From: Humisphaera borealis
Lineage (GTDB): Bacteria > Planctomycetota > Phycisphaerae > Tepidisphaerales > Tepidisphaeraceae
Assembly: GCF_015169395.1 (NCBI RefSeq)
Contig: NZ_CP063458.1
Coordinates: forward strand, 2,852,001 to 2,916,000
DNA length: 64,000 bases
Reading direction: 5' to 3'
Shown piece by piece: positions 1 to 35,979 of the stretch. Each line of letters starts with the position of its first letter. Within the stretch, counting starts at the first letter, position 1. The notes under the pieces were generated by a model. The model saw nothing but the letters and a program-made list of their open reading frames with translations. It had not been told where the DNA came from and made no database searches. The position numbers were made by a program, and so were the translations under genes.

Positions 1-32
1 GCCCGTCGTTCCAACAGCAGTAAACGAAACGA

Positions 33-111
33 AGTAGTCAGTAGTCAGTAGTCAGTAGTCGGTGGCCAGGGCATTTTCCTCTCTGACCACTGACTACTGA
101 CTACTGATTAC
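33..111. repeat. Imperfect inverted repeat of AGTAGTC/GACTACT units
   Basis: Tandem copies of a 7-base AGTAGTC unit (33-60) face copies of its complement (83-111) across a short spacer. The whole stretch lies in the leader upstream of the DUF1501 gene at 195. It can fold into a long imperfect hairpin. A comparable array with a different core (GTCACTGGTCA) precedes the cyclase gene at 44803. No coding potential is seen in 1-194. Confidence 0.6.
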
Positions 112-194
112 TCTCAATCGAAACAAACAGGTTCCAACACCAGGTTCATCGAACGATTCTGAAACGATCGTTCCCAACTCGTCGGAGGCTCAAT

Positions 195-1652: not shown

Positions 1653-1716
1653 AGTGACAGCGGTACCGGTCGCAAGACCGCGGCAAGACCTGTTGTGAAC
1701 TCAAGTTGAACCTGGA

Positions 1717-1746
1717 CCCCTCCGAGTCGAAAGATTCGGAGGGGTT
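1717..1746 (+). terminator. Rho-independent terminator of the DUF1501 gene
   Basis: A perfect 9-bp stem (CCCCTCCGA / TCGGAGGGG) with a 10-base loop is followed directly by TTTTT. It lies 65 bases after the stop at 1652, so the gene is probably transcribed alone or is the last of an operon that begins left of the window. Confidence 0.85.
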
Positions 1747-1793
1747 TTTCGTTGCGCCGCCCGCTTACCCCCGCAAAAGCGCCCTCTGGGAAC

Positions 1794-1811
1794 GCCGAGC
1801 TCCAGCTCGGC
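1794..1811. repeat. REP palindrome copy 1 (GCCGAGCT-CC-AGCTCGGC)
   Basis: An 18-base palindrome preceded by GGGAAC. The same unit, on the opposite strand and followed by GTTCCC, occurs at 2172-2189 and 2673-2690. All three are within or just beyond the RAYT gene at 1902-2735. RAYT transposases are known to bind and mobilise such palindromes in other bacteria. Confidence 0.7.
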
Positions 1812-1901
1812 CCTCTCTCCACATGCGCCGGGAACGCTGCCCCCGAACTATGAGCTCCGGCCGGGCCATTGTCTTACTTAAAGGCGCGCCTCAGTGCCGA
1901 G

Positions 1902-2735: not shown

Positions 2736-2769
2736 TTGGTAGACCTCCCTTCCCCGGTCGTCAGCCCTC

Positions 2770-5397
2770 CTACGGCACCCCAAACGTCGTTCGCACATAC
2801 AACCCATCGGCCGCCTCGAAACTCACCCGTCCTGTGTCGGAACTGCTGGTCTTCGCCGCCAGGTCCGCCAGGATCTGCTTGCTCTCGGCCTTTGGCAGGC
2901 CGAGCGTCACGATCAATCCGGTGCCCGAGGAATACACGCATTCCTTTCCCGTGATCTGGCAGCCGAACAGGTTGCTCGTGTTCATGCACCAGGCGACCGA
3001 CGCGGCGATCTGGCAGCCGTAGAAATCGCAGTCGCGAATCATGCTCCATTCGCTCGTGGAGATCTTGTACGAGTCGTGCTTGGTATCACTGCTTCGTTCG
3101 GAGAGGGCGCAGTTGACGAAGGCGCAGCCGTTGAGCTTGAAGCCGTAGTCCACGCGGGACAAGCGATCGAACTTACTCTCGACGAACAGGCAGTTGGTGA
3201 ACTCGAACTTGGCGCTGTAACTGTCGACGAACCAGCCTCCGGACTTGGCGAAACTGCACTGATCGAAGACGGCGTGGCGGGCCTTGAGCCGGCCGGACAG
3301 TTCGACGCCGAACCGCACCTTTCGGAACACCACCGGCCGGCCCGGTTCGCCGGAAATGTCCAGCACGCCCTGGGAAGCGATGATCGTGCCCCCTTCAACC
3401 AGGCAACCCGGCGCGATCTGAAGCGTGCCTTTGACCGTCGGGCGGTTTTCCTTTTTGTTCTCCTCCTGGCCGATGCTGAGCCTGCCTGACAACGCATGAG
3501 CGCCGCCCGGCCAGGTGACCTCGCCCAGGATCGGCGGTTCTGCCGCCAGCGGCTTTCGAGCAGAGCCTGCGTCGGTCCAAACCTTATTGCGATAGCTCTG
3601 TACCCGCGCCATGAACTTCTCGGGCGACAGCCCCGCCGCCTGCGGACCAACCCGCGGCGAGCCCGACGGTGTCGCGACGGCGACCGGGGAATCACTCCCG
3701 CCGGTGTTCGCCGCCACCTCCGGCGGTGCCGACGGCAACTCCGTCAGCCGCTTCTCGACCAACGACTTCACCAGACCCGTCAACTGCGGCAATGCCTGCA
3801 GATACCAGAAGCCCGCCCGGCTCTTGCACAGGTCGGCGATCGCCGGGTTCTTTGCTTCCTTGGTCGCCTGGTCCCACCACAGGTCGCCGACCGCTTTTTG
3901 CGCCTCGGCGGTCGCCGGCCCGGCCTGATCGGCGACCGCGAGTGCCTTCAGCCCGGCGTCGGAACCTTTCGCCAGCAGTGGAACGCCTTTGTCCAGGTCG
4001 CCGCGGGTCAGCGCGAGATATCGACCGACGATCAGGTTGGCTTCGGGGTCGGCCGGAGCGGCCGCCAGCTTCGCCCGGGCCGACTGAACGCGGTCGAACT
4101 CCGCGGCCATCGTCTCGAGGCGCGGCAGCCGGTCGCGAATCTGTGCCGAGACGGTGACGTTACGGCTGGCGATGCCATTCGAACGGACCAGCGGCACCAG
4201 TTTCCGCATGTCGGTGTACTGCTCACGCCTGGCCATCGCCTCACAGATCATCATTCCCAGCGCCGAGACCCACGCCGAATCCTGAGGCTGGCCGGACCGC
4301 CCGCTCACCCGCAGCACCACGTCCTTCATTACGTCGATGGGCATGACGGCGTAGTCTTCGCTAAGCATCAGCGCCGTGTACGCCGCCGTGGTAACATCAC
4401 CCGCCACGATTGCGTTCTCTCTGGCCTCAACGAGCATGGTGTATCGACCGGCAGGGTCGTCCTTGCTCGCCGATGCGCGGGACAGCAGTTCCAACACCAG
4501 GCTGTAGCGGCCGGCGGGCGTGGTGTCGGCGTACTGCTTCGACAGCACATCCTTCAGCAGCTTCTGGTTCTCCTTGAACGCAGCATCGCCTGGCACCGGT
4601 TTGCGGGTCGCCGGTCCGTCCGACGCGAGCCAGTCGATCAGGTCGTTAGCGGCGGCGGCGTTGGTCAGCACGCGCGGCGTCAGCACGACATTCGCCGCAC
4701 TCAGCACCGTGCGGATAAAGCCCACCGGCCCGGCGAAGTTGATCTGCTTGCCCTCGACACCGGCGGTGACCACCCCCACCACCTGCCCGTGCGCGTCGAT
4801 CAGCGGCCCGCCGGAGTTGCCATGGGTCACACTCGCGTCGAACTGAATCGTGACCAGCTGCCCCTTCTCGTGCCGCATCGCGCTGACCCGGCCGGTGGTG
4901 ATGGTGATCTCGGGGAGCGACTCTTTCTTCAACGACAGCCTCTGCCCCAGCGGAAAACCGAACGCCACCACTGGTGCGGTCTCGCGCATGCTCGCGATCG
5001 CCGCCGGCGACGCCAGTTCCAGTGCGTCCAGCGGCCCCGGCCGTTCGACCCGCAGCACCGCCACGTCGCGGGCGGCGTCCGACTTGACGACCGTCGGCGT
5101 GTAGATCCGCTGGGCCTTGGTGCCGGCGGCGACGATGAGATAGATCTTTGCGTTCTTCTCTTTGGTGAGCGGCTCGACGACGTGCTGGTTGGTGATAAAG
5201 ATGCCCGTGGCATCGATGCAGAATCCGGAGCCCATGTAGAGCCCCTTGTCCGCTTCAATGACGACATAAACCGTCGCCCGCCGCCCCGCTTCGATCAGCT
5301 TAGGATCGACCTGCGCGCTCGCCGATCGACTCGGCAGAACGCTGGCGATTAGAACGACAACGACGAACCTGAGTGCTGCAGAAGTGCCCCATCGCAT
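2770..5397 (-). CDS. HtrA-like trypsin-fold serine protease with beta-helix-like C-terminus
   Basis: An 875-residue secreted protein. A Sec signal peptide (residues 1-29, ending SASAQ) precedes an S1C-type protease domain with an intact triad: His72 in NQHVV, Asp111 in RDVAVL and Ser195 in HGNSGGPL. No PDZ domain is evident, unlike classical DegP. The middle (about 260-570) is helical and Ala-rich with no family I recognise. The C-terminal 200 residues (GTIIASQGVLDISG... FDQCSF... FTNCLF... LNGCAFVNC) have the short Asn/Cys ladders of a parallel beta-helix. The start has GGGAG 6 bases upstream. A role in periplasmic or surface protein quality control is inference. Confidence 0.8.
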   Translation of the reverse strand: MRWGTSAALRFVVVVLIASVLPSRSASAQVDPKLIEAGRRATVYVVIEADKGLYMGSGFCIDATGIFITNQHVVEPLTKEKNAKIYLIVAAGTKAQRIYTPTVVKSDAARDVAVLRVERPGPLDALELASPAAIASMRETAPVVAFGFPLGQRLSLKKESLPEITITTGRVSAMRHEKGQLVTIQFDASVTHGNSGGPLIDAHGQVVGVVTAGVEGKQINFAGPVGFIRTVLSAANVVLTPRVLTNAAAANDLIDWLASDGPATRKPVPGDAAFKENQKLLKDVLSKQYADTTPAGRYSLVLELLSRASASKDDPAGRYTMLVEARENAIVAGDVTTAAYTALMLSEDYAVMPIDVMKDVVLRVSGRSGQPQDSAWVSALGMMICEAMARREQYTDMRKLVPLVRSNGIASRNVTVSAQIRDRLPRLETMAAEFDRVQSARAKLAAAPADPEANLIVGRYLALTRGDLDKGVPLLAKGSDAGLKALAVADQAGPATAEAQKAVGDLWWDQATKEAKNPAIADLCKSRAGFWYLQALPQLTGLVKSLVEKRLTELPSAPPEVAANTGGSDSPVAVATPSGSPRVGPQAAGLSPEKFMARVQSYRNKVWTDAGSARKPLAAEPPILGEVTWPGGAHALSGRLSIGQEENKKENRPTVKGTLQIAPGCLVEGGTIIASQGVLDISGEPGRPVVFRKVRFGVELSGRLKARHAVFDQCSFAKSGGWFVDSYSAKFEFTNCLFVESKFDRLSRVDYGFKLNGCAFVNCALSERSSDTKHDSYKISTSEWSMIRDCDFYGCQIAASVAWCMNTSNLFGCQITGKECVYSSGTGLIVTLGLPKAESKQILADLAAKTSSSDTGRVSFEAADGLYVRTTFGVP

Positions 5398-5580
5398 GAT
5401 AGCTCCCGGCCCTAGGCCCTTTTGAGGAAGGCCGGATCATATCCGACCGGCGGCCATTGTGGTGCGGGCTTCACCCTGCACGTCCGTGGCACGAACGCCG
5501 TTCGTTCCCTGCGTCCAGAAAAGTGTCGACGCACTCACGGAGTAAACAGCCCGATTTCCCTTGCAAAACAACGCGCGGAC

Positions 5581-6160
5581 ACCTAACATATATAGAACAA
5601 TATCCGGCGTCGCCATGGGACGGGCGGCGTCCTTCCTCCATGCGCCGGTCGGCGGGTGTGATCTGTCGGCTTTAGCGTGCACTCCATGGAGATGGCTGTC
5701 CTTGGACGATCGGTGTCGGTCGGGCCGGGGTGGTGGTGTTGGTGTTTTGAGGCGGCCGAGAGATTTGGAGATGCGGGAGACGACGGGTTAGCCGCGACGC
5801 GAAGCGGAGCGTCCCCGGGCGGGTTGGTCGCCCTGCTCGAGCGTCGTCCGACCACGCCGGGTTCGTTCGGCGATGTCGCTCTGGGTTCGTTCGGCTAACA
5901 AGCCGAGGGCGCAGCGTACTCGCGGAGCCCCGGGTTTGCCGGTGTTGTCTCGGGTTCGTTCGGCAGTCTGCGCGTGGTGATTCGGTGTTAGACCTTGGGT
6001 GTTCGACGTTCGATGTTTGCGTCGAGTCCTGGGTTCGTTCGGCGCGCGGCCGGACATCGGACGGCGGGAGCATCGCCGGTGGTCTGCGGGGTGCGGTGGG
6101 GTGAACCCCACCCTACTTTCGCCTCGGGTTCGTTCGGCGACGTTGCGCCGGGTTCGTTCG
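5581..6160. repeat. Left arm of a long inverted repeat; array of GGGTTCGTTCGGC units
   Basis: The 5398-6199 gap holds no credible gene. From 5581 the sequence is a close inverted match of 25020-25777, beginning CTAACATATATAGAACAATA and continuing through several recognisable blocks. The 13-base unit GGGTTCGTTCGGC recurs at 5859, 5883, 5952, 6031, 6126 and 6150. The spacings 24, 69 and 79 recur exactly, mirrored, in the right arm. A palindrome of the GTAGGGTGGGG family lies at 6092-6116. The two arms bracket about 19 kb. Confidence 0.8.
6092..6116. repeat. Palindrome family TGCGGTGGGGTGAACCCCACC, copy 1
   Basis: A 25-base imperfect palindrome (GGTGGGGT-GA-ACCCCACC core). Other copies lie at 25063-25087, 26802-26826 (variant) and 26932-26956. 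All are intergenic. Confidence 0.65.
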
Positions 6161-6199
6161 GCCAAGCCGCTTGCCTTGCCGGGCATACGTCGTGTGCCG

Positions 6200-7162
6200 T
6201 TACGCAAGTTGCGGCTTGTGGATGGCGCGGCGGGCGGTGGGAGAAAGAAACTGATTCCAGACCCGCGGAATGCAGTACTGCGGGCGGAGGATGCCGGACG
6301 CCATCAGGTAGGCGCACGCTTTGACGTACGCCCGGCCGCCGAAGGCCATGCCGGCCGTTCGGTAATACAGGCGGGAAAGCTGGTCGGTCGCCCGCAGCAC
6401 TCTGCTGAAGAAGCCTAGGCCGTCGTACTCGGCGGAAAACTGGTTGTAATCGATGGTTTCGCCCTTGAGGCGGGCCTGCTGTCGCGATTGCACGAACTTG
6501 ACGTACTTCAGGATCTTGAAGAACGACGTCATGCTCACGCTGGAGGCGTGAACCCGGTAGTGCATCAGCGGTTCGGGAAGGACGACGATCGGCCCTTCGA
6601 CGGCCATCCGGTCGAACAGCTCGAAGTCTTCGGCGCCGTCGAACGCCGGGTTGTACCCGCCGACCTTCTCCAGGACGTCTTTCCGCAGGAAGGCGGTCGG
6701 GTGAATCATGTGGACGTCTTCGCCGGCGGCGCGAAGGCGGCGGAACTCTTCAACGGAGGTGGGACCCGTCTGCGACAGGCTGAGCACGCGATCCCCGGAA
6801 CCGATGTGCTGGGCGAAGCAGCCCCAGGCGACGACTTCCGGCTGCCGGTTCGCCGCCGCCAGCTGTTTGGCCAGCCGCTCGGGCATCGCGATGTCGTCGG
6901 AGTGCATGATCGCAATCCACGGATGCTTCGCCAGCGCGATGCCCTTGTTCAGACTTCGGCTGATGCCGCCCTTTTCGGCGCGGATGACACGGATGCGGGG
7001 GTCGGCGGCGGCGTGTTTCTCGGCGCGGGCGGCGGTGTCGTCGGTCGAGAGGTCGTCGATGACGATCAGCTCGAAGTCCGCAAGCGTTTGAGCGCGGATG
7101 CTCTCGATCGCCGGATCGATGTACCGGGCGGCGTTATAGGCGGGCATGACGACGCTGACCAT
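6200..7162 (-). CDS. Family 2 glycosyltransferase
   Basis: A 320-residue GT-A fold glycosyltransferase, family GT2. It shows the usual opening VSVVMPAYNAARYI, the IDDLSTDDT nucleotide-binding region near residue 36, and the metal-binding HSDD near residue 87. A central acceptor-side region (GAEDFELFDRM) matches the ED acidic motif of the family. I chose ATG 7162 because GGAG lies about 7 bases upstream; an upstream in-frame start at 7186 has none. It would transfer a sugar from a nucleotide-sugar donor to a surface polysaccharide or lipid; the acceptor cannot be told. It stands alone between the repeat array and the exoprotein genes. Confidence 0.85.
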   Translation of the reverse strand: MVSVVMPAYNAARYIDPAIESIRAQTLADFELIVIDDLSTDDTAARAEKHAAADPRIRVIRAEKGGISRSLNKGIALAKHPWIAIMHSDDIAMPERLAKQLAAANRQPEVVAWGCFAQHIGSGDRVLSLSQTGPTSVEEFRRLRAAGEDVHMIHPTAFLRKDVLEKVGGYNPAFDGAEDFELFDRMAVEGPIVVLPEPLMHYRVHASSVSMTSFFKILKYVKFVQSRQQARLKGETIDYNQFSAEYDGLGFFSRVLRATDQLSRLYYRTAGMAFGGRAYVKACAYLMASGILRPQYCIPRVWNQFLSPTARRAIHKPQLA

Positions 7163-7309
7163 ATGAACTCTCCGTCGGGCGCGCAACGCGGACCAGGCTC
7201 CCTGTCTGGTCTATCGGCTCAGAAGCGGCCCGGAACAAGCTGCCGGGAATCGTCCGGTAATGACGACGCCGGCAGGCGACGGACAGTGCGTCAGTTGGGG
7301 TCGTACAAC

Positions 7310-10300
7310 TCAGTTGAGGTCGTATATCTCCAGCAGGTTGGAGGTGGACGCGCCGGCCTGGGTCCCGCCGCCGGCCAGGTACGCCCTGCCTGCGAAGTAG
7401 AGCGGGAAGATTCCGTGCCTGGCGGTGGGCATGGGCGACCCGACCCGCCAGGTGTTTGTCAGCGGGTTGTAGATGTCGACCCGGCTGTAGACTTTGTTGG
7501 CCGTGGCGCCGGCGCCGGTCGAGGTCTCGCCGCCCATGACATAGAACTCGCCGTTAGCGAACACGGCTTTTCCGGTGCCGCCGCGGGCCTGGGGAAGCGG
7601 CGCCAGCGGCGCGCCGCTACCGCTGGAGGTCCAGGTATTGGTGGCCGGGTCGTAAACCTGTGTGTAGTTGAACCCGTTGGACGGGATGTTGCCACCGTCT
7701 CGACCGCCGAAGACGTAAAGCCGGGTTCCGTCAGTCGCCGAGGCGGCATGGTTCACACCCTGTGGCATCGCCGCCAGCAGGGTCCAGGCGTTGGTTTGCG
7801 GATTGTACTTGGCCACCTGATTGGTGGTGGACGAGCCGATGATCCCGCCGGCGACGAAGATCTCTCCGTTGATGACAGCGGAGCTGCTGCTGCCCGCGGC
7901 AAACGGCATGTTGGCTCCGGTCGACCAAGTATTGGTAAGCGGGTTGTAGATCTGCACCTTGCCTTCGGAGGATCCGCCGAGGCCGCCGATCAGGTAGAGC
8001 CTGCCGCTGACAACTTCGGCGACGTGGTGATTGCCGACGAAGGGTCGGACGGCAAGATTGCTTTGCCAGGCACCGGTGGAAATGTTGTACGCCAGCGTGG
8101 CCGAGCTTCCCTCGCCGACGATGTACATCTTGCCGGCAATGACACCGCCCGCGACTTCGCCGAGCGCCACCGGAAGGGGTGTGCCCGTAGACCAGGTTTT
8201 GGAGATTTGTCCGACCCACCCGCCAGCCACCGGGTTGGGGCTGTCTCCACCGACGACGAACAGCTTGTCTCCGATAAGGCCCGCGACGGGGGTCTTACGG
8301 CCTTGGGGAAGCGACTGGAGCTTGCTCCAGGCGTTGGTGGCGGGGTCGTACTCGGCAATGTCGCTACTCGGGAGGTCGCCGTTGACCGTACCGCCAATGA
8401 CCAGGATGCGCCCGTTGCGGACGAGCACGGACGAACTGATGTGCCCGCGGGCGACGGAAAGATCGGCCAGACGGGTCCAGGTGTTGGTCGTGGGGTTGTA
8501 GGCATCGAGCTCGACCTGGTTGCCGCCGAACTCGTCTGCCAGGTGCTGTCCGCCGATGGCGTACACCAGGCCGTTGACGGCCGCGCCGGCAAGGTGATTG
8601 CGCGGATTCGGCATCGCGGCACGCGACTCCCAGGTCGTGCCGCCATTCACGGGGAGGACCCAATGGTCGCCGTAGTCCATGTCGCCCAGGGCGAGGGTGC
8701 GGGAGCGTCCACCGAAGAAGTGGATTTCCGAACCGACCAGTGCCGCGCCACCACCGGCCCGCGACGCGGGCAGGCTCGGTCCGGCGGACCAGGTGTTGGT
8801 CAGCGTGTCGTACTTCCAGACGCTGGCAATTTCCGGGCCGGGGTTGTCGCCGAGGAAGCCGCCGACAAACCAGACGGTGGTGCCAACGACAACGGTACCG
8901 GCATGCGTCACGGGCTCCGGCATGTCGGCGATGCGTGTCCAGGTATTGTTCGAGGGGTCGTAGACGTCGCAACGGGTGGTCGCGAGGAACAGGTCGTTGT
9001 AGAACCCGCCGAACGCGTAGAGCTTGCCGTTCACGACGGCTGCCTGTCCTTCGCCTCGGGAAATCGGGGATGGCGCGATGGCATTCCAGGCGAAGGGCGA
9101 AGTCGGGGCCGGATTAGCCGTGGATGTGAACTGCACCCAGTCGAAGTTCCCGATATCGCCGCCGCTGTTGGTAGCGTCGAAGGCAATACGGACGACGTGG
9201 CTGCCGGCGGTAAGGGCAACACCCGTCTTGATGATGGTGGCATAGGTCTGCCAGCCACCGGTGGGACTGAGCGCCATCGCGCCGGTGACGTTGGCGCCAT
9301 CCACTTCGATGTGGAAAGTGCCGCCATAGCCAGCGTCGGCGGAGGCGCGGACAGAGACGTCGTACGTTCCCGATGTCGCGACATTGACCGTGTACTCGAG
9401 CCATTCGCCGACCGAGGCGTGGCCGACGGCGTAGCCGGGACCGGCGTCGGTGATCGCCTCGACATCGACGCCGGACGCGCGATAGGCGCCGCTGACATTG
9501 GTGGTGTCCGTGTCATGGTAAGCAATACCCTCGCCCCCTTCGTCGAAGTTCTCGACTTCGATCTTGCCGGGCAGGGCCCATGCCGCACCGCCAAAGGGTA
9601 GCTGGCCCGCGGGCGGAGGCGGTGGTGGCGGAGGCGGAACGGTCGGTGATGCCGTCAGCGTGAGCCAGTTCAGGTTGCCGATATCTCCACCGGCCGATGC
9701 ATCAAACGCCAGCCGCAGGACATGCTGGCCGGCGGTCAGGTTAAGGCCGGGCTTGCTCACCGTCTGCCAGGTCTGCCAGCCGCCAGTGCCGGGCAGCGTG
9801 ATCGACCCGCCGGTCGCGACGCCGTCAACTTCCAGGTGCGCGGTGCCACCGCCGCTGGCCGTCGCGAAGCGGATGCCCAAGTCGTAAGACCCGGCGGTGG
9901 CGATGTTCACGGTGTATTCGAGCCATTCACCGGCGACGATCCGGCCGATGTTGAAGCCGCCACCGGTATCGGTGGTCGCCTCAATATCGACGGCGGTCGT
10001 GCGGTAGGCACCGCCGCCGTTGACGGTGTCGGCGTCATGAAAGGCGACGCCTTCGCCGCCGTCGTCGAAGTTCTCGGCTTCGATCTTCCCGGGTACCGCC
10101 CAGGCGACGCCTCCGAAGGGCGTCTGACCAGCGGGTGGTGGTGGTGGTGGTGGCGGCGGAACAGCGGTGTCATTGTCGGCGATTGTGACGGTGCCGAACG
10201 TCGCCGCGCCCAGCGTGTACGCGACCGACGACGCCAGCGTCAGCGTCACCGTTTCGCTTGCTTCGACGGCGGTGTCGTCGACGGGGACAACATTGATCAC

Positions 10301-26965: not shown

Positions 26966-28084
26966 GTGAACGCCATGCGAAACGCCTTGACCGCTGTGTG
27001 CCTGCTTGCGATCAACCTGTGCGGCCTTCCGGCGTTCGGGCAGGTTGCTGGCGGGGGCGATCGGTTCGGGGCGGACGCTTTGCTGGCGGGGCGGGGCGAA
27101 GCGGACGGGGCGGTTCGGTCGGCGGCCGATTGGCCGCGTCGGCGCGATCGGCTGCTGGAGGCGATGCAGCGGGTCATGGGGCCGCTGCCGGCGCCGTCGG
27201 CGGCGCCGCTGGACGTCAAAGTGCTGGCCGAAGAGCGCGGCAGGACGTTCGTCCGTCAGACCATCGAATACACCGCCGAGGTAGACCCGCGCAGCGGCCG
27301 GGCCGAGCGGGTGCCGGCGTACCTGTATCTGCCGATCGACCTGAAGGCCGGCGAGAAGCGGCCGGCGGTGCTCGCCCTGCACCCAACATCAAAGCTGGGC
27401 AAGGCCGAGATCGCCGGCGCCGGCAAGCCCAACCGCCAGTACGGGCTGGAGCTGGCCGAGCGCGGTTACGTGGTGATCTGCCCCGACTACCCGTCGTTCG
27501 GTGACTATGCCAAGGACTTTGCCGCGTCGCCGCACGCTTCGGGGACGATGCAGGGGATCGTCAACCATCGCCGGGCTGTCGACCTGCTGATCTCGCTTTC
27601 GCAGGTGGACGGCGAGCGGATCGGCGCGATCGGGCATTCGCTGGGCGGGCACAACGCACTGTTCATCGCGGCGTTCGACTCCCGCATTAAAGCGGCCGTC
27701 ACGAGCTGCGGCTGGAACCTGTTCCCCGACTACTACAAGGGAGACCTGACCGGCTGGAGCAGCGACCGGTACATGCCGCGCATCAAGTCGGAGTTCGGCC
27801 GATCGCCCGACCGGATGCCGTTCGATTTTCATGAGGTGATCGCCACGATCGCACCCCGCGCGGTGCTGAGCATCTCGCCGACACAGGATGCGAACTTCGC
27901 GGCGGAAGGGGTTCGCAAGGCGGTGCCTTCGGTCGCGGCGGTTTATGCGCTGCTGGGAGCCGAGCGGGCGTTTGAGGTGGAATACCCGGAGTGTGCGCAT
28001 GACTTCCCGCCGGCGATGCGGGACCGGGCGTACCGGTTTCTGGATGTCGCGCTGCGGGTGCAAACTGACGGGCGCGGCAGATGA
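26966..28084 (+). CDS. Secreted alpha/beta hydrolase
   Basis: A 372-residue exported serine hydrolase. A Sec signal peptide (about 1-25, ending PAFGQ) precedes an alpha/beta hydrolase fold. The likely triad is Ser225 in GHSLGGH, Asp308 in PTQDANF and His345 in ECAHDFP. The strand-turn AVLALHPTS near residue 130 forms the oxyanion region. It resembles the dienelactone-hydrolase/acetyl-xylan-esterase-like proteins common in planctomycetes, so a carbohydrate-ester substrate is possible but unproven. The start is GTG 26966 with GGAG 5 bases upstream; ATG 26975 is less well placed. Confidence 0.82.
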   Translation: MNAMRNALTAVCLLAINLCGLPAFGQVAGGGDRFGADALLAGRGEADGAVRSAADWPRRRDRLLEAMQRVMGPLPAPSAAPLDVKVLAEERGRTFVRQTIEYTAEVDPRSGRAERVPAYLYLPIDLKAGEKRPAVLALHPTSKLGKAEIAGAGKPNRQYGLELAERGYVVICPDYPSFGDYAKDFAASPHASGTMQGIVNHRRAVDLLISLSQVDGERIGAIGHSLGGHNALFIAAFDSRIKAAVTSCGWNLFPDYYKGDLTGWSSDRYMPRIKSEFGRSPDRMPFDFHEVIATIAPRAVLSISPTQDANFAAEGVRKAVPSVAAVYALLGAERAFEVEYPECAHDFPPAMRDRAYRFLDVALRVQTDGRGR

Positions 28085-28235
28085 GTCACCACCACGGCGG
28101 ATGAATCACCACGGAGGCACGGAGACACGGAGGGGCGCCCGGGGACCCAAGGTGTTGGCGTGATGAGAGGCTGGATGTCGGGTCCTCAGTGCCCCGCGTT
28201 TGTCGCCAACTCGTCTGCTCCGAGAATGCTGAAAT

Positions 28236-28306
28236 GAACCGCAGATTGCGCAGATTGCGCAGATTTGGGAGAAAGCAATCTGCGACATCTGCGCAATCTG
28301 CGGTTC
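28236..28306. repeat. Long hairpin of AACCGCAGATTGCGCAGAT family, copy 2
   Basis: The same family as 24591-24660, with ends GAACCGCAGATTGCGCAGATT and its complement. It sits in the 277-base convergent gap (28085-28361) between the hydrolase and BNR-protein genes. No gene is seen there. It may act as a bidirectional barrier. Confidence 0.7.
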
Positions 28307-28361
28307 AGTTCGGCGTGCACAGGACGTGTTCCATCCCGGTTCTTCAGCCGGCGGCGTGCGT

Positions 28362-29609
28362 TCAATAGATGACGCGGAAGGAGCCGTCGGGCAGCGCGAC
28401 GGCGGAGGGGACGCTCCAAACCGGGATGCCGGGTGCCTGGCCGGACTCGCCGGCGATCGGTTTGCCAGCGGCATCGAAGAGCTGCCAGGCGAGGGTTCCT
28501 CCCTTGTTCCAGCCGGTGCCTTCGGCCCAGGCGACCAGTATTTGTCCGCGGGAATTCGCGGCGACGCTGGGGTGCTTGCGGCTCTTTCCGTCGCCGGGCA
28601 CCGACATCATGACAGTGGGCTTGGTCGCACCGGCGGTCAGCAGCGCGACGCGAATCTGCCCGGTCGTCTCCCATGCGGCGGCGAGCGACCGGCCGCCATC
28701 GGCCGCCACGCTGGTACAGGCGGCGGTGCTCATGACGCAGGTCGCGACCTGCCAGGGGTCGGCGACGGCGACCTGAAACGATTTGCCGTGGTCGTCGGAC
28801 ACGAGCATCTGGATATCGCGGTGGATGGCCTGGCTCGCCGAGCGGTACAGGATCAGCACGCGACCTTTGTCGCCGCAGTAAATGCGCATGCCGCAGCAGG
28901 CGCACACGCCATTGGGTTGGGGGTTGGCGGCGGTTTCGGGGGCGAAGGTTTTGCCGTCGTCCTGGGATCGGCTGATCCAGACTTGTCGCCCCTCTTCGCC
29001 TTCGGACTTGCCGGGATGGGCCGGTGCGTGCCAAGCGACGTAGACGTTGCCGTCGGCATCGGCGGCGACGGACCCGCCGCCGTCGAGGCCGGGGTGTCCG
29101 GCCCCGACGTTGCGTTGCGGTTCGAACGCGTCGCCGGCGTCGTTGAGCCGGGTGTAGAGCATGGGGGCGAGCTTGCCCGACTTGGGCTCGGCCTTGGAAG
29201 AGCCCATCCATGCGACGTGGATCCGATCGCCACGGCCGACGGACAGGTGCGGGCCGCGAACGGTTCCGGTGACGATGACGCTTTCGGGCCCGCTGTTGAC
29301 CCGGATGGGTTTGGTGAAGGTCGCCCCGCCGTCGTCCGAGCGGACGTAGTAGGCGTCGGCGGCCATGGGATCGCCTTTGACGTACATCAGGTGCAGCCGT
29401 CCGCGGGAGTCGATCGCGGCCTGCGGAAAGATGCCGCGGTCGGGGACGCGAAGCGTTTTGACGGCTGGCGCGTCCACCGCGGCGACCGCCTGCGCGGTGG
29501 ACGCCAGTGCCGAGGCGAGCAGTACCATGACGAGCAGCGCTGCGGCCCAGAACGGGGCCGCGGCGCAGCAGCGGATTGGCCTGGGGCTGTTTGGTCTCGC
29601 TGTTCTCAT
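28362..29609 (-). CDS. BNR-repeat (sialidase-like) secreted protein with CxCC motif
   Basis: A 415-residue protein with an N-terminal membrane or signal segment (about 20-42) and a sialidase-type beta-propeller. BNR/Asp-box-like repeats are visible (SDDGGATF, SQDDGKTFAP, SDDHGKSFQV). The residues that make true sialidases catalytic are not apparent. A motif VCACCGMRIYC near residues 234-243 places four cysteines together and looks suited to metal binding. It is the last gene of the minus-strand run 33817 to 28362, starting 34 bases after the multicopper oxidase gene, which suggests a copper-related role (inference). Confidence 0.72.
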   Translation of the reverse strand: MRTARPNSPRPIRCCAAAPFWAAALLVMVLLASALASTAQAVAAVDAPAVKTLRVPDRGIFPQAAIDSRGRLHLMYVKGDPMAADAYYVRSDDGGATFTKPIRVNSGPESVIVTGTVRGPHLSVGRGDRIHVAWMGSSKAEPKSGKLAPMLYTRLNDAGDAFEPQRNVGAGHPGLDGGGSVAADADGNVYVAWHAPAHPGKSEGEEGRQVWISRSQDDGKTFAPETAANPQPNGVCACCGMRIYCGDKGRVLILYRSASQAIHRDIQMLVSDDHGKSFQVAVADPWQVATCVMSTAACTSVAADGGRSLAAAWETTGQIRVALLTAGATKPTVMMSVPGDGKSRKHPSVAANSRGQILVAWAEGTGWNKGGTLAWQLFDAAGKPIAGESGQAPGIPVWSVPSAVALPDGSFRVIY

Positions 29610-29643
29610 GGGCGGTCGGTCCTGTTAGAAACGGGCGCGGAAC

Positions 29644-31146
29644 TCAGTGCTGATGTGGGGAGGTACCGGCCGGCGTCGGTCTGGTTGTCGGGCCGGTTGA
29701 TGGATTGCCTTTTGGCCGAGCCGCGGCAGCGATGCCCGGGGGCGGCTTGGGCGCGGTGCTGCCGTCGGCGGCGATGCCGTTGGCTTGCAACTGCTCGGCC
29801 GTTGCCGGCAGCGATCGGTCGCCGGGCTTGTCCTGGTACCAGCCGGGATCGGCGTTGTCTCCGTTGGGGAGCGTTTCGCGCACCTTCAGGATGGTGAACA
29901 TGCCGCCCATGGTGATGTAGTCGTGCGGTCCTTTGCCGCCGACCATGGGAATGCTGTTGGGCGGAACGGCCATCCCCATGTCCCCCATGTCGCCCATGCC
30001 GTGCTGGCCCATGGTCATGTAGTCGGGCAGGAGCTTGCGTATCTTGTCGTCGAGGCCGGCGGGATCGACGCCGATCATGTTGGGCAGGCCGTGCCCCATC
30101 TGGTTCATCACGTGGTGGGTCATGTGGCAGTGCATGGCCCAGTCGCCGAGGTTGTCGGCGACGAACTCGACGGTGCGTGTGGAACCGACCGGCACGAGCA
30201 CGGTGGTTTCCGGCCACTGGCCGGCCTCGGGGATGCGGCCGCCGTCGGTCTCGGTGACCTTGAAGTAGTAGCCGTGCAGGTGAATGGGGTGATGATCCAT
30301 CGCCGACAGGTTGCCGAAGCGCATGCGGACCTTGTCGCCCAGTTTCGCGACGAGCGGCGCGGTTCCGGGGAAGGCCCTGGCGTTAAAAGTCAGCACGTTG
30401 AAATCGGTCATGACGTTGGGGTCGGGGCGGTTGGTGCCCACTTTGATCGCCCATTCGTGCGTCTGAAGGACGAAGTCGCGGTCGGGTCGCTGGTCGGGCG
30501 GCACGCCACGCGGGTGCACGACGATCATGCCGACCATGCCCATGCCCATCTGGGTCATTTCGTCGTGATGGGAGTGGTACATGAAGGTGCCGTTCTGGCG
30601 GAGCGTGAACTCGTAGGCGTAGGTTTCGCCGGGCGGGATGGCTTTTTGCGACAGGCCGCCGACGCCATCCATGCCGTTGGGGACGATGAGCCCGTGCCAG
30701 TGGACGGTGGTCGCCGCACCCAGCCGATTCGTCACGAAAAAGCGAACGCGATCGCCTTCGACGGCTTCGATGCACGGACCATGGACCGAGCCGTTGTAGC
30801 CCCAGCAGCGGGCGCGCAGTCCGGGCGCGAACTCGTGGTCGACTTCTTCGGCGACCATGTGAAAGACTTTGACGCCGTCGACGATCTTGTACGGCAGCGT
30901 CCAGCCGTTGGGGACGATGACGGGGTTGTAGTCTTTGCCCGGTTCGCCCGGGGGGAGCGCGGCACCCGGGTTGGCATTCGCGGGGCGGGATGCGGCGTCC
31001 TGCGCCGAGGCTATGCCGTTGTGGTGAAGCGCCCCGCCGGCGACGGCGGTCGCCGTGGCGGCCAGCATTCGTCGGCGGGACAGTACGCGAGTTGCAAGGC
31101 TGAACGTCGATGCGTGGTTGTCATGGTTGCTAGAGCGATCGGACAT
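29644..31146 (-). CDS. Multicopper oxidase (Tat-exported)
   Basis: A 500-residue laccase/CopA-type multicopper oxidase. The N-terminus has a twin-arginine signal (LSRRRMLAATATAVAGG). All four His-x-His copper clusters are visible: HWHG at 149-151, HSH at 191-193, HPIHLH at 286-291 and HCHMTHH at 339-345, together providing type 1, 2 and 3 sites. The C-terminal region is Met/Gly-rich (MTMGQHGMGDMGDMGMAV), as in copper-tolerance oxidases. I start at ATG 31146, with GGGAGGT 7 bases upstream and the TolC-like gene stop one base before. It would oxidise Cu(I) or organic substrates in the periplasm. Confidence 0.92.
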   Translation of the reverse strand: MSDRSSNHDNHASTFSLATRVLSRRRMLAATATAVAGGALHHNGIASAQDAASRPANANPGAALPPGEPGKDYNPVIVPNGWTLPYKIVDGVKVFHMVAEEVDHEFAPGLRARCWGYNGSVHGPCIEAVEGDRVRFFVTNRLGAATTVHWHGLIVPNGMDGVGGLSQKAIPPGETYAYEFTLRQNGTFMYHSHHDEMTQMGMGMVGMIVVHPRGVPPDQRPDRDFVLQTHEWAIKVGTNRPDPNVMTDFNVLTFNARAFPGTAPLVAKLGDKVRMRFGNLSAMDHHPIHLHGYYFKVTETDGGRIPEAGQWPETTVLVPVGSTRTVEFVADNLGDWAMHCHMTHHVMNQMGHGLPNMIGVDPAGLDDKIRKLLPDYMTMGQHGMGDMGDMGMAVPPNSIPMVGGKGPHDYITMGGMFTILKVRETLPNGDNADPGWYQDKPGDRSLPATAEQLQANGIAADGSTAPKPPPGIAAAARPKGNPSTGPTTRPTPAGTSPHQH

Positions 31147-31147
31147 C

Positions 31148-32590
31148 TTAGTGACCTCCCCGGCCACCGGCCGGTGCTGCGGAGCCTTCATTGTCGTTGG
31201 CGTTTGTGTCGTCGGCGGCGGGCATTCTGCCGAGCAGGAGCTGATCCAGTTCTGCTCTTGCCAGCCAGTAATCCCGGACTGCGCGGACGTACCCTGCCCC
31301 GGCATCGATCTGCTGTTGCCTGGCGTCAACGAGTTGCAGCGGGCTGGCCTGCATCGCGTTGTACTGAAGCTGCGTCTGATCGACGATCTTTTGCCGCAGC
31401 GGCAGGATCACCTTCCGGTGGTAGTCGGCCTGTTCGTGGGCGGCGATGACCGCTTCGCAGGCTTCGCGGGTTCGAGACCGCACATCGACAGCGATGGCGG
31501 CGTAGCGCTGATGGGCGCGGCGCAGTTCGGCCTGCGCTTTGGCGACGGCGGGCTGGCCCTGATCGAACAGCGGGATGGGCAGCGAGAAGGCCGGGCCAAC
31601 GCCCCAGCTGCCGTCGTTGTCACGATCGGCGATCACGCCGAGCGAGACTTCGGACAGCAGGCCATACGGTGCGGCGAGTCCGAGCGTCTGTGACGCCGCC
31701 TCGATCTTCTGGCGTCGCAGTTGCAGATCCAGGCTTCGTTCCACGGCACGGGATTCCAGGCCGTCTGCGAGCCCGACGTCTGCAGGCGCGTCCGGCAGGT
31801 CCGGCAGCCGACCGGCGACCTTCCACTCGGCGGCGGGCGTGCCCCAGAGGCCCATCATCCGGTTCAGCCGCTCGCGATGCCGAACCGTCTGCGCCTCGGC
31901 GGCCCGCACGTCGAGCTTGCTTCGCTCGAAAAGCGCTTGCTCGGTAAACAGGTCGAGCTCGCGGGTGTTGCCGGCCGCCCGCAGACGTTTGGCGATGTCG
32001 TAAGAGGCGTCGGTTGCCGCCAGGACCTGTCGGCGAAGTTCCAGCATCTGCTGCGAAGCCTGCATCGAGAAGAACGCGGTGCGTGTCTCGCCGGCCAAAT
32101 CGAGCACGGCACCGGTGACGCGCAGCTTGGCGGCGGCGAACTCGCTGCCCGCGATGCGCTGGCGCAGGGGGATGTAGAGCAGATCGATAAAGTCCTGCAC
32201 GAGTGCCAGCTCGACCGCCGTGCCGCCGCCGGTGGTCGAGAATCGGATGTTGCCGTCGAACACGGGGTTTCGAAGCAGCCCCGCGGCGACGAGGTCGGCC
32301 TGGGCGATCATCAGGTCTTCGTAGGTCGCCTGAAGGTGCCGGTTGTTCAGCAGCGCGATCTGCACCGCCTGCTCGGCCGACAATTCAGACCGAAGCATCT
32401 CGGCGACGCGGGCCTCGACGGCTTTGTCGGCTTCGGTGCCCTGGTTCCAGCGGACCTCCAGGCCGGTGCGCTCGGAGACGTTCTGTTTCACGTCGGCAAA
32501 ACCGGCCTCGCGGGGGACGTCGGCGCAGCCCGCCGCGACGAGCAGAAGGCTAGATATCACGACAGCACGGAAAGTGATGGGATCGGCCAT
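31148..32590 (-). CDS. TolC-like outer membrane efflux lipoprotein
   Basis: A 480-residue outer-membrane factor (OEP family). A lipobox (LLVAAGC, Cys22) implies lipid anchoring. Two long helical OEP repeats follow (about 70-260 and 270-460), with the typical ALLNNRHLQATYEDL and PLFDQGQPAVAKAQAEL segments. It would form the outer-membrane channel of a tripartite exporter, as CusC does for copper and silver. No membrane-fusion or RND pump gene is present in this cluster, so it must use a pump encoded elsewhere or has diverged. It is 3 bases from the metal-binding lipoprotein gene and 1 base from the oxidase gene. Confidence 0.88.
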   Translation of the reverse strand: MADPITFRAVVISSLLLVAAGCADVPREAGFADVKQNVSERTGLEVRWNQGTEADKAVEARVAEMLRSELSAEQAVQIALLNNRHLQATYEDLMIAQADLVAAGLLRNPVFDGNIRFSTTGGGTAVELALVQDFIDLLYIPLRQRIAGSEFAAAKLRVTGAVLDLAGETRTAFFSMQASQQMLELRRQVLAATDASYDIAKRLRAAGNTRELDLFTEQALFERSKLDVRAAEAQTVRHRERLNRMMGLWGTPAAEWKVAGRLPDLPDAPADVGLADGLESRAVERSLDLQLRRQKIEAASQTLGLAAPYGLLSEVSLGVIADRDNDGSWGVGPAFSLPIPLFDQGQPAVAKAQAELRRAHQRYAAIAVDVRSRTREACEAVIAAHEQADYHRKVILPLRQKIVDQTQLQYNAMQASPLQLVDARQQQIDAGAGYVRAVRDYWLARAELDQLLLGRMPAADDTNANDNEGSAAPAGGRGGH

Positions 32591-32593
32591 GGG

Positions 32594-33226
32594 TCAATGC
32601 CCTCCATGATCGTGCCCCGCGGCCGGAGCCGTGGTGGCTGACTGCGTAGCGGGGATCGGCTTGAGCTTCATGCCGCACTTGGGGCACTTGGCGTCCGCGT
32701 CGGCGGACACGACCTGGGGATGCATGGGACAGGCGTGCATCGCGCCCGCGTGCCCGGCGTGGCCGCCCGAGTCGGAAGCCGAAGTCGGCTGCGTTGTCGC
32801 GGCGGATGCGCCGTGGTTGTGCCCGGCTTGCTCGCTGACGGCAACCGGAGACGCGGTCGGCTGGGTTGCGGGTTTCAGCTTCAGCTTCATGCCACACTTG
32901 GGGCAGCGGTCATCGGCTTTGGTCGAGATCACTTCCGGGTGCATCGGACAGGTATAGAGGGCTGGAGCCGTGGCCGGTGCCGCGGCGTGTTGGTGAGCGG
33001 CGTTGTCGCCGGCCGAGGCCTGACCGTGATCGTGCGCGGCCGGCTGGGCGGTCGCTTCCGCCAGAACCGCGGACGCCAGTGTCGTACTTCGCGCGGCGTG
33101 CGGGGTCTCCATCGCTGCCGGACTGGCCGGATGGTTCGGACCCATAGACGACGAAGAAGAGGTGGCGGCGGTGCATCCGCCGATCAGCACGGACAACAAT
33201 GCAAATGGGACAAGTTGCCAGTTCAT
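32594..33226 (-). CDS. Lipoprotein with two heavy-metal-binding (HMBD) domains
   Basis: A 210-residue lipoprotein (lipobox SVLIGGC, Cys18). Two copies of the heavy-metal-binding domain YTCPMHPEV...CPKCGMKL lie at residues 91-116 and 165-190, each with a Cys/His pair and a CxxC. The linkers are rich in His, Ala and Thr (HDHG, HQH, HNHG, GHAGHAG), which would add metal-binding capacity. In other bacteria this domain occurs on CusB adaptors and copper ATPases; here it is free-standing and duplicated. It probably delivers or buffers copper for the oxidase and efflux channel encoded next to it. Confidence 0.88.
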   Translation of the reverse strand: MNWQLVPFALLSVLIGGCTAATSSSSSMGPNHPASPAAMETPHAARSTTLASAVLAEATAQPAAHDHGQASAGDNAAHQHAAAPATAPALYTCPMHPEVISTKADDRCPKCGMKLKLKPATQPTASPVAVSEQAGHNHGASAATTQPTSASDSGGHAGHAGAMHACPMHPQVVSADADAKCPKCGMKLKPIPATQSATTAPAAGHDHGGH

Positions 33227-33343
33227 GGCTTCTCCTGAGATTGAGATCGGGATATCGAAGAAGGAAATCGCAGAGGCCGCCCCGCGGCACCAAACGGCAC
33301 CGCAGCGCCGGGCGGGCGCGACGTCAGCATCGACGGCCGATGA

Positions 33344-33817
33344 TCAATTCAGGAGAGAGCAGTGAAGTGAAAGGAGCGTAAGCCCGTCTCGAAGCCGGGG
33401 TGGATCCGTCGTGGGCTGCAGCGACAAGTAGTCGCCGGTCTGGGAGAGAAGGCTCGTCGCGAGCGGGATGAAGGCGAAAGCCGGTTCGAACCCCAACCCG
33501 TCGCCAGCCGATCTGGCATCGCCGACAACCGGTGCGGCCTGGCTGACCTTGCAATGATTGCAGCCTGTCGGAGTAGGCGTGGCCGGCTTGGGCGCGTGGG
33601 CGGGTCGATGATCCGGCTGGTCTGCCTTGGATGTTGCGCAGCACGCGTGAGCCGTGCCGGCGACGACGTCCGGCGACGCCGACACCGCGACAGTCGTGCT
33701 ATCGACGGCGGCGTGATGCGCCGGCATCGCCGCGGAGGCGCAGACACACCGACTCCCGGCCAATGCGATCGCAAAGGCCGTCAGGATGGAGAAGATGCGT
33801 TGGACGCCGGCGGTCAT
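33344..33817 (-). CDS. Small secreted Cys/His-containing protein
   Basis: A 157-residue protein with a signal peptide (about 1-28, LTAFAIALAGSRCVCASA) and a mature part with HHA, HACC and CNHCK motifs. The pattern resembles DUF2946-like proteins seen in metal-resistance loci, but I cannot assign it firmly. It is the first gene of the copper-type run, 117 bases upstream of the HMBD lipoprotein gene. It probably binds metal in the periplasm. Confidence 0.55.
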   Translation of the reverse strand: MTAGVQRIFSILTAFAIALAGSRCVCASAAMPAHHAAVDSTTVAVSASPDVVAGTAHACCATSKADQPDHRPAHAPKPATPTPTGCNHCKVSQAAPVVGDARSAGDGLGFEPAFAFIPLATSLLSQTGDYLSLQPTTDPPRLRDGLTLLSLHCSLLN

Positions 33818-34125: not shown

Positions 34126-35979
34126 ATGAATCGACCTACCCTTGTCGCCACCGCCCGCACCGTTGCCCTCGCGATCGCCGCCGTTGTGTTGGCGGTCGGA
34201 TGTGCGCCTTCCAGTCCGATCGAGCCGGCGGTGATGAAGCCGTCGTCGCAGCCCGTCGCCCAGGCGACGACCGCGCCGGTCCCCGACATCATTCGAAACA
34301 AGGAGAAGGAAACCTCCAGCCAGGTGCTGGCCTACCCGACTGGCGACCGCGGGACGAGCGTGATCTTGCTGGAGAAGAAGTTCCCCACGCAGGCCCGGCT
34401 CGGGCAGATTTACAAGTACCAGATCACCGTGACGAACCTAAAGGAATGGCCGATCGCCGGCGTAGTGGTGCGCGAGGACTTCCCGCCGTCGTTCGCCGTC
34501 GCGAAGGACCCCAATGAGGTCGCACCCGGAACGACCTTGCCGGCCGAGGCGGGTGCAGCGAGCGGGAGAGCGGTCGAACCGGAAGATCCCGCCCAGCCGC
34601 CGATCGCCAACCCGCTCGATACGAGTGCGCCAGCCACCCGCCCCGCCAACCCGCTTTCGCCGACGCCGGCGGCGACCGTTCCTCCCCCGCCGTCAATGTC
34701 GCCACGCGATGGCAAGGACGTCCGGTACGTGCAGAACATCGGCTACGTCCGCGACGTCGACGGAACCTGGTGGGGCACCGCGACACGCCGCGAAAAGCGT
34801 GGCGTCATCGCCCAGGAGTATCTGATTGGCACGCTGGAACCGGGACAGGTAAAGCAGATCACCGTGGCGGGCGTGTCGGACGAACTGGGCAAGCTCGATA
34901 CCCGCAGCACGGTCACCTACACGCCGGTGCTGGCCGGTGGGACGGACGTGATCAACCCGATCCTGAAGTTGACGAAGGAAGCCCCGCGCCACGCCGATTT
35001 GTGCGACGCGATCGAGTTCCGCTACATCATCGCCAACGTGGGCGTGGGCACCGAAACCGACGTGCGAATTGACGAGGCGTTGCCTGAAGGCATCACGACC
35101 GAAGACGGGAAGAGCAGCATTCGCATTCCCGTCGGCGATCTGCCGCAGGACCAAAGCAAATCGTTCACGATCAGGGTCCGCGCGGCCAAGACCGGTGAAT
35201 ACGCCACCCGCGCCCAGGCCCGCGGGTTCGGTACGGCCACGCAATCGGCGGAGCTTCCGACGGCGGTCCATGCGCCGAAGCTCGCGATCGCGATGACCGG
35301 GCCGGCGTCGGAGTATGTCGGCAAGGCGGGCGGTTACGAAATCACCATCACCAACACCGGCGACGCCGCCGCCCGCAACACCACGCTGTCGGCGACCGCC
35401 GACGCCGGGGCCGCGGTGCAGTACCCCGCGCCGGCAGCCGTGGCGACATCCCGGCCAGCGGCCGGGGCGGGATATGCCGTCGGCGTTATCGAGCCGGGTG
35501 CTTCGAAGAAGGTCCGCATCACCGCACGCCCCACCGTCGGCGGCCCCATGACCGTCAAGGCGACGGCCAAGTCCGACTGCGCCGACGCGGTGTCGGCCAC
35601 CAGTTACACCGACGTCAAGACGATCGCCGCACCGGACATCCAGGTGACCGACGTCGATGATCCCGTTCGCGTCGGCGAGATGACACGGTACCGCATCGTC
35701 GTCAGCAACGGCGGATCAGGACCGGACCGGAACGTCCGGATCGTTGCCACCCTGCCCGTGCAGATGAAGTTCATCCAGGCCACAGGCCCGACGCCGGCGA
35801 AGTCGGTCGATGGCAAGATCACATTCGAGCCGCTTTCGAAGCTCGACGCGGGGCAAACCGTGACATGGCTGGTTGAAGTCAAAGCCGAGGAGGCCGGCGA
35901 CGTGCGTTTCCGCGCCGAGATGACGAGCGAAAGCCTGACCGAACCGGTCATCGGCACGCAGTCGACGCGGCTGTACTGA
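34126..35979 (+). CDS. Lipoprotein with DUF11-type repeat domains
   Basis: A 617-residue surface lipoprotein (lipobox VLAVGC, Cys26; hence the choice of ATG 34126 over 34000). At least three Ig-like DUF11 domains are recognisable by YKYQITVTNLKEWPIAGVVVREDFP, YEITITNTGDAAARNTTLSATAD and RYRIVVSNGGSGPDRNVRIVATLP. A Pro/Ala-rich insert follows the first (about 145-190). DUF11 proteins are structural or adhesive components of the envelope. The last repeat ends in LTEPVIGTQSTRLY. It has no obvious operon partner and converges on the 36022-37601 genes. Confidence 0.82.
   Translation: MNRPTLVATARTVALAIAAVVLAVGCAPSSPIEPAVMKPSSQPVAQATTAPVPDIIRNKEKETSSQVLAYPTGDRGTSVILLEKKFPTQARLGQIYKYQITVTNLKEWPIAGVVVREDFPPSFAVAKDPNEVAPGTTLPAEAGAASGRAVEPEDPAQPPIANPLDTSAPATRPANPLSPTPAATVPPPPSMSPRDGKDVRYVQNIGYVRDVDGTWWGTATRREKRGVIAQEYLIGTLEPGQVKQITVAGVSDELGKLDTRSTVTYTPVLAGGTDVINPILKLTKEAPRHADLCDAIEFRYIIANVGVGTETDVRIDEALPEGITTEDGKSSIRIPVGDLPQDQSKSFTIRVRAAKTGEYATRAQARGFGTATQSAELPTAVHAPKLAIAMTGPASEYVGKAGGYEITITNTGDAAARNTTLSATADAGAAVQYPAPAAVATSRPAAGAGYAVGVIEPGASKKVRITARPTVGGPMTVKATAKSDCADAVSATSYTDVKTIAAPDIQVTDVDDPVRVGEMTRYRIVVSNGGSGPDRNVRIVATLPVQMKFIQATGPTPAKSVDGKITFEPLSKLDAGQTVTWLVEVKAEEAGDVRFRAEMTSESLTEPVIGTQSTRLY

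Follow-up and report, generated by a model that had tools for sequence, protein, structure and literature searches.

A copper-gene operon of Humisphaera borealis carries the cysteine form of a sialidase-like propeller family with probable selenocysteine-containing relatives

The window analyzed here is a 64,000-nucleotide stretch of the Humisphaera borealis genome (contig NZ_CP063458.1, positions 2,852,001 to 2,916,000), and the system in question is an operon of five minus-strand genes that runs from position 33817 to position 28362 of the window, with intergenic gaps of 117, 3, 1, and 34 bases. The first gene is an open reading frame for a secreted small protein of 157 aa rich in Cys and His (33344–33817, minus strand), whose product gave no Pfam or NCBIfam match up to an E value of 0.1. 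It is followed on the same strand by genes for a 210-aa lipoprotein with two HMBD stretches (32594–33226; PF19335, 73.5 bits; lipobox LIGGC), a 480-aa lipoprotein of the TolC/OEP family of outer-membrane factors (31148–32590; PF02321, 126.5 bits; lipobox present), and a 500-aa multicopper oxidase exported through the twin-arginine translocation pathway (29644–31146; PF07732, 124.2 bits; PF07731, 106.8 bits; twin-arginine signal). The last gene encodes a secreted BNR/sialidase-like propeller protein of 415 aa (28362–29609; PF13088, BNR_2, 43.3 bits against a cut-off of 31.4), which is the Cys form of a family with a CxCC-[C/U]P signature, U denoting selenocysteine (Sec). The Pfam matches of the four assigned genes (HMBD, OEP, Cu-oxidase_3/2, and BNR_2) all exceed their cut-offs. 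An initial annotation of this DNA had described five same-strand genes with short gaps, and all five open reading frames were found where it placed them. The operon is bounded by a convergent gene (26966–28084), whose product is an alpha/beta-hydrolase resembling glucuronyl and acetyl-xylan esterases, and by a divergent DUF11 gene (34126–35979); short direct and inverted repeats, recognized by eye, lie between the operon end and the esterase-like gene (28225–28310).

HMBD proteins, outer-membrane factors, and multicopper oxidases occur in copper systems of the CusCBA(F), Cop, and Pco types. The window oxidase carries the copper-ligand motifs HWHG, HSHH, HPIHLHG, and HCHMTHHVM and, having Cu-oxidase domains as well, is assigned as a multicopper oxidase; it scores below the NCBIfam cut-offs of both CopA/PcoA (TIGR01480; 166.1 against 478.95 bits) and CueO (NF008205; 95.5 against 525 bits). 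The absence of an RND pump, as initially described, was borne out: the 7.19-Mb, single-contig source genome has twelve matches to PF00873, several being fragments of a single gene, and none lies inside the window (C1:2852001–2916000). Pfam also detected no adaptor family among the five genes, so the unit lacks the CusA and CusB pair of a Cus RND operon. Elsewhere in the source genome (C1:7145000–7161000), a CusA-like RND gene is accompanied by an adaptor and an outer-membrane factor of its own.

Relatives of the window oxidase were searched in 294 planctomycete genomes and were present, at E values up to 1e-100, in 29 of them, the source genome included. Twenty of the 30 other listed places were examined (loci and genomes are cited below by L and G numbers), several of these stretches ending at contig ends. 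An outer-membrane factor similar to that of the window adjoins the oxidase at 18 of the 20 loci; of the two exceptions, L252 lacks it and L255 is cut by a contig end. Because of this recurrent adjacency, a pump-less layout of outer-membrane factor and oxidase is ordinary. The idea that the operon is unusual for its missing RND pump was therefore rejected, and the 'reduced' copper system of the initial annotation loses its novelty, as a TolC-like protein plus oxidase is a common cassette. Small HMBD proteins were present at a few of the 20 loci and RND genes in five of the 20 stretches. A BNR-family gene was found at only one of them, L243, and is broken across frames there. This CACC-bearing relative (L243:5583–6107) is divergent to the outer-membrane factor–oxidase pair within a larger Cus/Cu-ATPase locus; the genus of L243 also has an unbroken BNR copy (L103).

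The BNR protein belongs to a widely distributed family. Of 61 near genomes searched, 14 have relatives (source genome included, the last ones weak); relatives also occur on contigs of Planctomycetota, Verrucomicrobiota, Armatimonadota, and Gemmatimonadota, and on plasmids of Bacteroidota, Alphaproteobacteria, and Gammaproteobacteria, making seven bacterial groups altogether. In a 24-row alignment covering these seven groups, with Sec entered as Cys, residues W193, C236, C239, R256, and C291 are invariant, and C238 and P292 are kept in at least 90% of the rows. In the window, the CxCC motif (codons 236–239) occupies positions 28893–28904 of the minus strand, and codon 291, a TGC at 28737–28739 of the same strand, encodes the invariant Cys of a second site of the form C[PV][MV], which reads CVM here. 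The motif VCACCGMRIYC had been read correctly in the initial annotation; its final Cys, C245, is absent from the other rows of the relatives' alignment, and the invariant second-site C291 had been missed. Eight members of the family gave no NCBIfam match over cut-off. A CSMC...CPMC variant occurs in the window's own taxonomic family (L027:7894–9060, L028, and L029), and in L027 a CusCBA-like operon (3–7604), whose outer-membrane factor is rich in Met, runs divergently from the BNR gene. At L081, tandem BNR members of the different subtypes CNCC and CGCC lie on the minus strand (6899–8014 and 8001–9158).

A structure model of residues 30–390 reached a pLDDT of 76.4 and a pTM of 0.82, and as modeled, the window BNR protein is a sialidase-like propeller. 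Its best Foldseek matches, among them the Porphyromonas gingivalis sialidase 8feb and Dfer_1899 (5hx0; function unknown), had E values of about 1e-9 and TM scores of about 0.58. VIA-align gave Z values of 21–22 for sialidases, with CylK (25–27) and PLL lectins (22–23) ranking equal or higher. By profile alignment alone, the A2 profile places its conserved YR..RD segment on a sialidase blade of 8gn6. The BNR_2 fold, whose structural relatives include sialidases, also suits a different account, in which the window BNR protein is a passenger, that is, a glycan-binding or sialidase-like protein outside the copper unit. Consistent with a passenger, BNR relatives at 17 loci of nearer and farther relatives are in no case beside the window's type of oxidase or outer-membrane factor (0/17), and only one of the 20 other oxidase loci holds a BNR relative. 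Against it, the gene is on the oxidase strand at a gap of 34 bases, BNR genes recur near oxidases on plasmids of Bacteroidota and Alphaproteobacteria, and the conserved Cys site is not known to have a role in sialidases. On this evidence, we consider a passenger improbable.

The most informative feature of the family lies at the second site. The 294 planctomycete genomes were searched with the BNR family and gave matches in at least 139, many without the motif; 100 of the listed places were examined, of which 20 were weak matches taken as controls. About eleven strong listed places lie outside the 100, mostly near kin of included ones, and no inner stop was listed for them. Among the 100 stretches, 77 genes have both CxCC and a second-site residue: 61 encode Cys, and 16, from 15 genomes, have an in-frame TGA at that exact codon (TGC 41, TGT 20, TGA 16). 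Outside the 77, L164, L175, and L176 keep a degenerate motif and L163 has lost it. As the first scan broke frames at TAA and TAG, the scan was repeated with every stop read through; with a slightly different pattern, the 75 rows from Planctomycetota then comprised 59 Cys, 16 TGA, and no TAA or TAG at the site, and no other stop was found inside the domains ahead of the gene end. No Sec member was seen in Verrucomicrobiota or Gemmatimonadota: for their 23 and 11 places no more than one stop was listed, and the 20 members examined all encode Cys with no stop inside the domain.

Several features accompany the TGA codon. In seven pairs, protein identity is similar upstream and downstream of it, and third-position changes lead downstream of it too. 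A stem-loop 14–34 nt 3' of the codon has a median energy of −9.65 kcal/mol in TGA genes versus −3.2 kcal/mol in Cys genes (p = 4e-6). Compared with dinucleotide shuffles, the combined p was 1e-6 for TGA genes and 0.72 for Cys genes, and seven of the 16 TGA genes were individually below p = 0.05; the signal from a simple comparison of folds about the TGA was less strong (z, p = 0.009; energy, p = 0.05). A hairpin with a G in its loop, like that of a selenocysteine insertion sequence (SECIS), is present in 15 of the 16. Two Cys members, L112 and L122, have a GGTT/GGTC-loop hairpin just 3' of the second-site codon, at the usual SECIS place; these are possibly relics of a lost Sec form.

The genomes that carry the TGA genes also carry Sec machinery. 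SelB or a tRNA-Sec above 60 bits, a threshold of our own choice set above the lower-scoring tRNA-like matches, was present in 15 of 15 TGA genomes versus 32 of 47 others (p = 0.008, genomes counted by eye); G174 counts only through a truncated SelB below cut-off, and without it p = 0.047. Taken singly, SelB exceeded its cut-off in 12 of the 15 and tRNA-Sec exceeded 60 bits in 13. On a 90-row tree (site masked in 77 rows and unmasked in the 13 others, all Cys), the Cys/Sec history requires nine changes, at least seven of them on starred branches, with Sec in two deep clades, and one genus uses both codons (TGT in L120, TGA in L128). The window protein is placed among Cys members only. With TGC at codon 291, the window gene is by its codon not a selenoprotein gene, and the source genome (G000) has neither SelB nor tRNA-Sec above cut-off (best scores 175.5 against 242.25 and 46.8 against 47).

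Could the TGA codons instead be assembly errors, nonsense mutations, or Trp codons of a variant code? All 15 TGA genomes are 80–95% complete assemblies, a point in favor of such readings. Yet all 16 codons fall at one position that is Cys in relatives and never TAA or TAG, conservation continues downstream, some of these genes also terminate in TGA, and SelB or tRNA-Sec occurs in every one of the 15 genomes, with one SelB truncated. We therefore regard a non-Sec origin as very improbable. As judged from these sequences, the family probably includes a new kind of selenoprotein in related bacteria, and the TGA would be read as Sec in the cell. Because the Cys/Sec exchange is confined to that residue, it marks C291 as the reactive residue.

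The family is also linked with copper genes. We examined 14 of 24 plasmid records with BNR relatives, and 13 of the 14 have the motif. Among these 13, a multicopper oxidase, CopC, or heavy-metal ATPase gene lies in the examined stretch at 12, in a sample of which some records were first picked for an oxidase match and many are from related Rhodobacterales. On the Sulfitobacter THAF37 and Roseovarius plasmids, genes for TolC, oxidase, copper-binding and azurin-like proteins, and cytochrome c are followed by the BNR gene; the Runella plasmid has oxidase, BNR, and RND genes, the Adhaeribacter plasmid metal and copper ATPases, the R. litoralis plasmid CopC, CopD, and oxidase, and the Methylomagnum plasmid CopC. 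The oxidase gene is directly upstream of the BNR gene in Tritonibacter, Salipiger, and Roseivivax (in annotated pieces in the latter two) and inside the examined stretch in Marinovum, S. mediterraneus, and Spirosoma pSLIN02. The thirteenth, Spirosoma pSLIN01, has just a DUF326 gene and a heavy-metal-domain gene. The motif-less homologue, from Paraburkholderia, has no annotated copper gene nearby.

In Verrucomicrobiota, Cu-ATPase or Cus-type genes were found at two of 12 examined loci (of 23 places), and with CusF, SCO1, and TonB copper receptors included, eight of the 12 have a copper gene. CusF is fused above cut-off to the BNR member in four of the 12 (L226, L227, L229, and L230), and L229 also has SCO1/SenC. 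TonB copper-receptor genes occur at five of the 12 (L225, L227, L229, L230, and L231): the three tested, in L225, L229, and L230, scored 687–697 bits on TIGR01778 against a cut-off of 472, and those of L227 and L231 were identified as relatives of them. Small CusF-domain proteins with a Cys-rich N-terminus are encoded near the copper-receptor and BNR genes at L229:6695–7090, L231:9362–9802, and L230:12099–12476. In Gemmatimonadota, Cu-ATPase or Cus-type genes were found at five of eight examined loci (of 11 places). In Planctomycetota, an HMBD gene lies within 10 kb of at least eight of the 77 members versus 0.80 expected from genome density, in a count made by eye among related, non-independent genomes and with an expectation that took several matches per gene separately. 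Clustering of recurrent neighbors also returned a cluster of generic ABC ATPases at 11 loci, together with numerous strand-shadow open reading frames; these were set aside.

These domain fusions and neighborhoods favor a copper-handling role. The initial annotation had cast the BNR protein as a new metal-binding partner of the HMBD and oxidase set. Its metal-linked character is upheld, in that the CxCC family is tied to copper genes by neighborhood, CusF/SCO1 fusion, and HMBD enrichment; the partnership with this particular set is not, given the 17 relatives' loci described above. The annotation also named homologues lying mainly away from metal genes as grounds for abandoning the idea, and within Planctomycetota this is partly the case, as set out below.

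A second account assigns the BNR protein to another soft metal, a metalloid, or a sulfur species, with copper genes merely as frequent neighbors. It draws on three points: the majority of planctomycete members and almost all of the TGA members lack a copper neighbor; RND neighbors at some loci may be general metal pumps; and mercury-resistance genes lie near the BNR gene on two plasmids. On those same two plasmids, multicopper oxidases adjoin the BNR gene, and the CusF/SCO1 fusions and TonB copper-receptor neighbors are copper families. We rate this account as doubtful, a shade below the passenger. The plasmids concerned are from Rhodobacterales, and their oxidase–BNR pair adjoins merA, merF, and merT (L264:6470–14338 and L265:6774–14182).

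Taken together, the copper linkage and the Cys/Sec exchange suggest that a sialidase propeller was put to new use and carries a soft-metal or redox site. We consider it reasonably probable that the five genes form a periplasmic and outer-membrane copper-handling unit in which the BNR protein is a sialidase-fold propeller turned into a copper-handling redox protein. The oxidase would oxidize Cu(I), possibly along with other substrates; copper would be bound by the HMBD lipoprotein and the Cys/His protein; and the outer-membrane factor would serve an inner-membrane pump encoded elsewhere or act alone. CxCC and C291(P/V)M may meet in space as one thiolate site for a soft metal, which would take up Cu(I) and hand it from partner to partner, with copper as the presumed ligand and the direction of transfer likewise conjectural; alternatively, the CxCC/C291 site may shift its thiol/disulfide state with copper. 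Relatives with the Sec pathway would place Sec at the C291 equivalent. The simplest reading of the window operon is that of a copper oxidation and sequestration cassette that gained a Cys-type member of the BNR family.

Several observations weigh against this copper-handling interpretation and its Sec component. Any copper marker was found at 16 of 89 motif loci versus two of 24 other BNR loci (p = 0.21), in a comparison whose 89 loci pool 13 earlier ones, three of them from other phyla, and whose controls are nearly all from Planctomycetota, three keeping degenerate motifs. A copper marker is missing from the examined stretch of most planctomycete members, 15 of the 16 TGA members included; the sixteenth (L135) has as its marker a CusB/CzcB-like adaptor with an outer-membrane factor. 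CusF, SCO1, and copper-receptor probes taken from the verrucomicrobial loci found nothing in the other 127 loci, and the composition of the plasmid sample given above points the same way. At the site itself, a few members (L027–L029) are CSMC/CPMC variants without C238, and a sequence search found no solved structure of the family, only sialidases and sialidase fusions. As to Sec, one of the seven pairs, L131/L132, shows nearly no third-position bias (56, 56, 60), the L135 TGA gene lacks the G-loop hairpin, the hairpins of L131 and L104 are weak, and the 90-row tree is of the 'quick' type, whose stars are less trustworthy.

The copper neighborhoods are also compatible with the BNR protein being a thiol or selenol oxidoreductase in an SCO/TlpA-like role, which would reduce or isomerize the Cys–Cu sites of periplasmic cuproproteins, copper being its substrate environment and no stable ligand. 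The SCO1 fusion in L229 and neighbors that are cuproproteins or copper-delivery proteins agree with this, as does the view in a recent inventory that most uncharacterized selenoproteins serve redox functions (PMC13188914). The site, however, is CxCC plus a distant C/U, unlike the UxxC or CxxU pattern usual in thiol-redox selenoproteins, and the extra cysteines and the Met/Val after C/U would seem to resemble a metal site. We hold such an oxidoreductase to be rather unlikely, although a stronger contender than the passenger. The BNR protein may thus store or pass on Cu(I), or it may service the thiols of cuproproteins.

Whether the family as a whole is new was assessed from the literature. Table 1 of the 2026 inventory, covering 119 prokaryotic selenoprotein families, lists no BNR or propeller family (PMC13188914), and term searches of five other papers gave no match to sialidase, BNR, or propeller (PMC12013277, PMC9312934, PMC2398784, PMC1088965, and PMC5029168). 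Within openly accessible main texts, a study of planctomycete selenoproteins among them (PMC4807772), no publication was found that joins BNR/sialidase proteins with Sec, or with copper beyond the thiocyanate dehydrogenase (TcDH) cluster described below. We see an even balance for and against the broader proposition that the family is undescribed and consists of periplasmic copper proteins of sialidase fold, defined by CxCC and Cys/Sec-Pro-Met/Val, with repeated Cys/Sec exchange in Planctomycetota; it would then be the first selenoprotein family built on a propeller, with a candidate for a natural Sec–copper site working with CusF, SCO1, copper oxidases, and TonB copper receptors. If so, 'sialidase family protein' entries in copper clusters would become copper-handling proteins, genes currently cut short at TGA would become annotated selenoproteins, and closely related pairs, like the TGT and TGA members of a single genus, would provide a natural experiment on the benefit of selenium at a possible copper site.

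Among known systems, metal-linked selenoproteins such as SaoB/SaoC, MbdU, CopZ-like proteins, and the SO_0444 Cu/Zn efflux proteins share a Sec at a putative soft-metal site and, as listed in the inventory, belong to families other than the BNR propeller (PMC13188914). Published descriptions of the Thioalkalivibrio cluster for TcDH, a copper enzyme, place a BNR gene with copC, copD, tatA, and an outer-membrane receptor gene and report its up-regulation on thiocyanate (PMC5744179, PMC5328954); compared by description rather than by sequence, it resembles the window in having a BNR gene among copper genes. Sialidases and other GH33-type BNR propellers share the BNR/Asp-box propeller with the window protein but are only about 10–17% identical to it and differ by the family's invariant CxCC and C291. 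From CusCBA(F), Cop, and Pco systems, the window operon differs in having neither CusA nor CusB and in an oxidase under the CopA and CueO cut-offs; BNR relatives elsewhere adjoin Cus-like, CopC/CopD, and Cu-ATPase genes. Another counterpart is the TolC–copper oxidase cassette, exemplified by the Simkania plasmid pSn and the planctomycete loci, which matches the window in an outer-membrane factor beside an oxidase of the same subfamily and, at a few loci, in a small HMBD protein, and from which the window is set apart by its intact BNR gene, the one relative among the 20 planctomycete loci being frame-broken.

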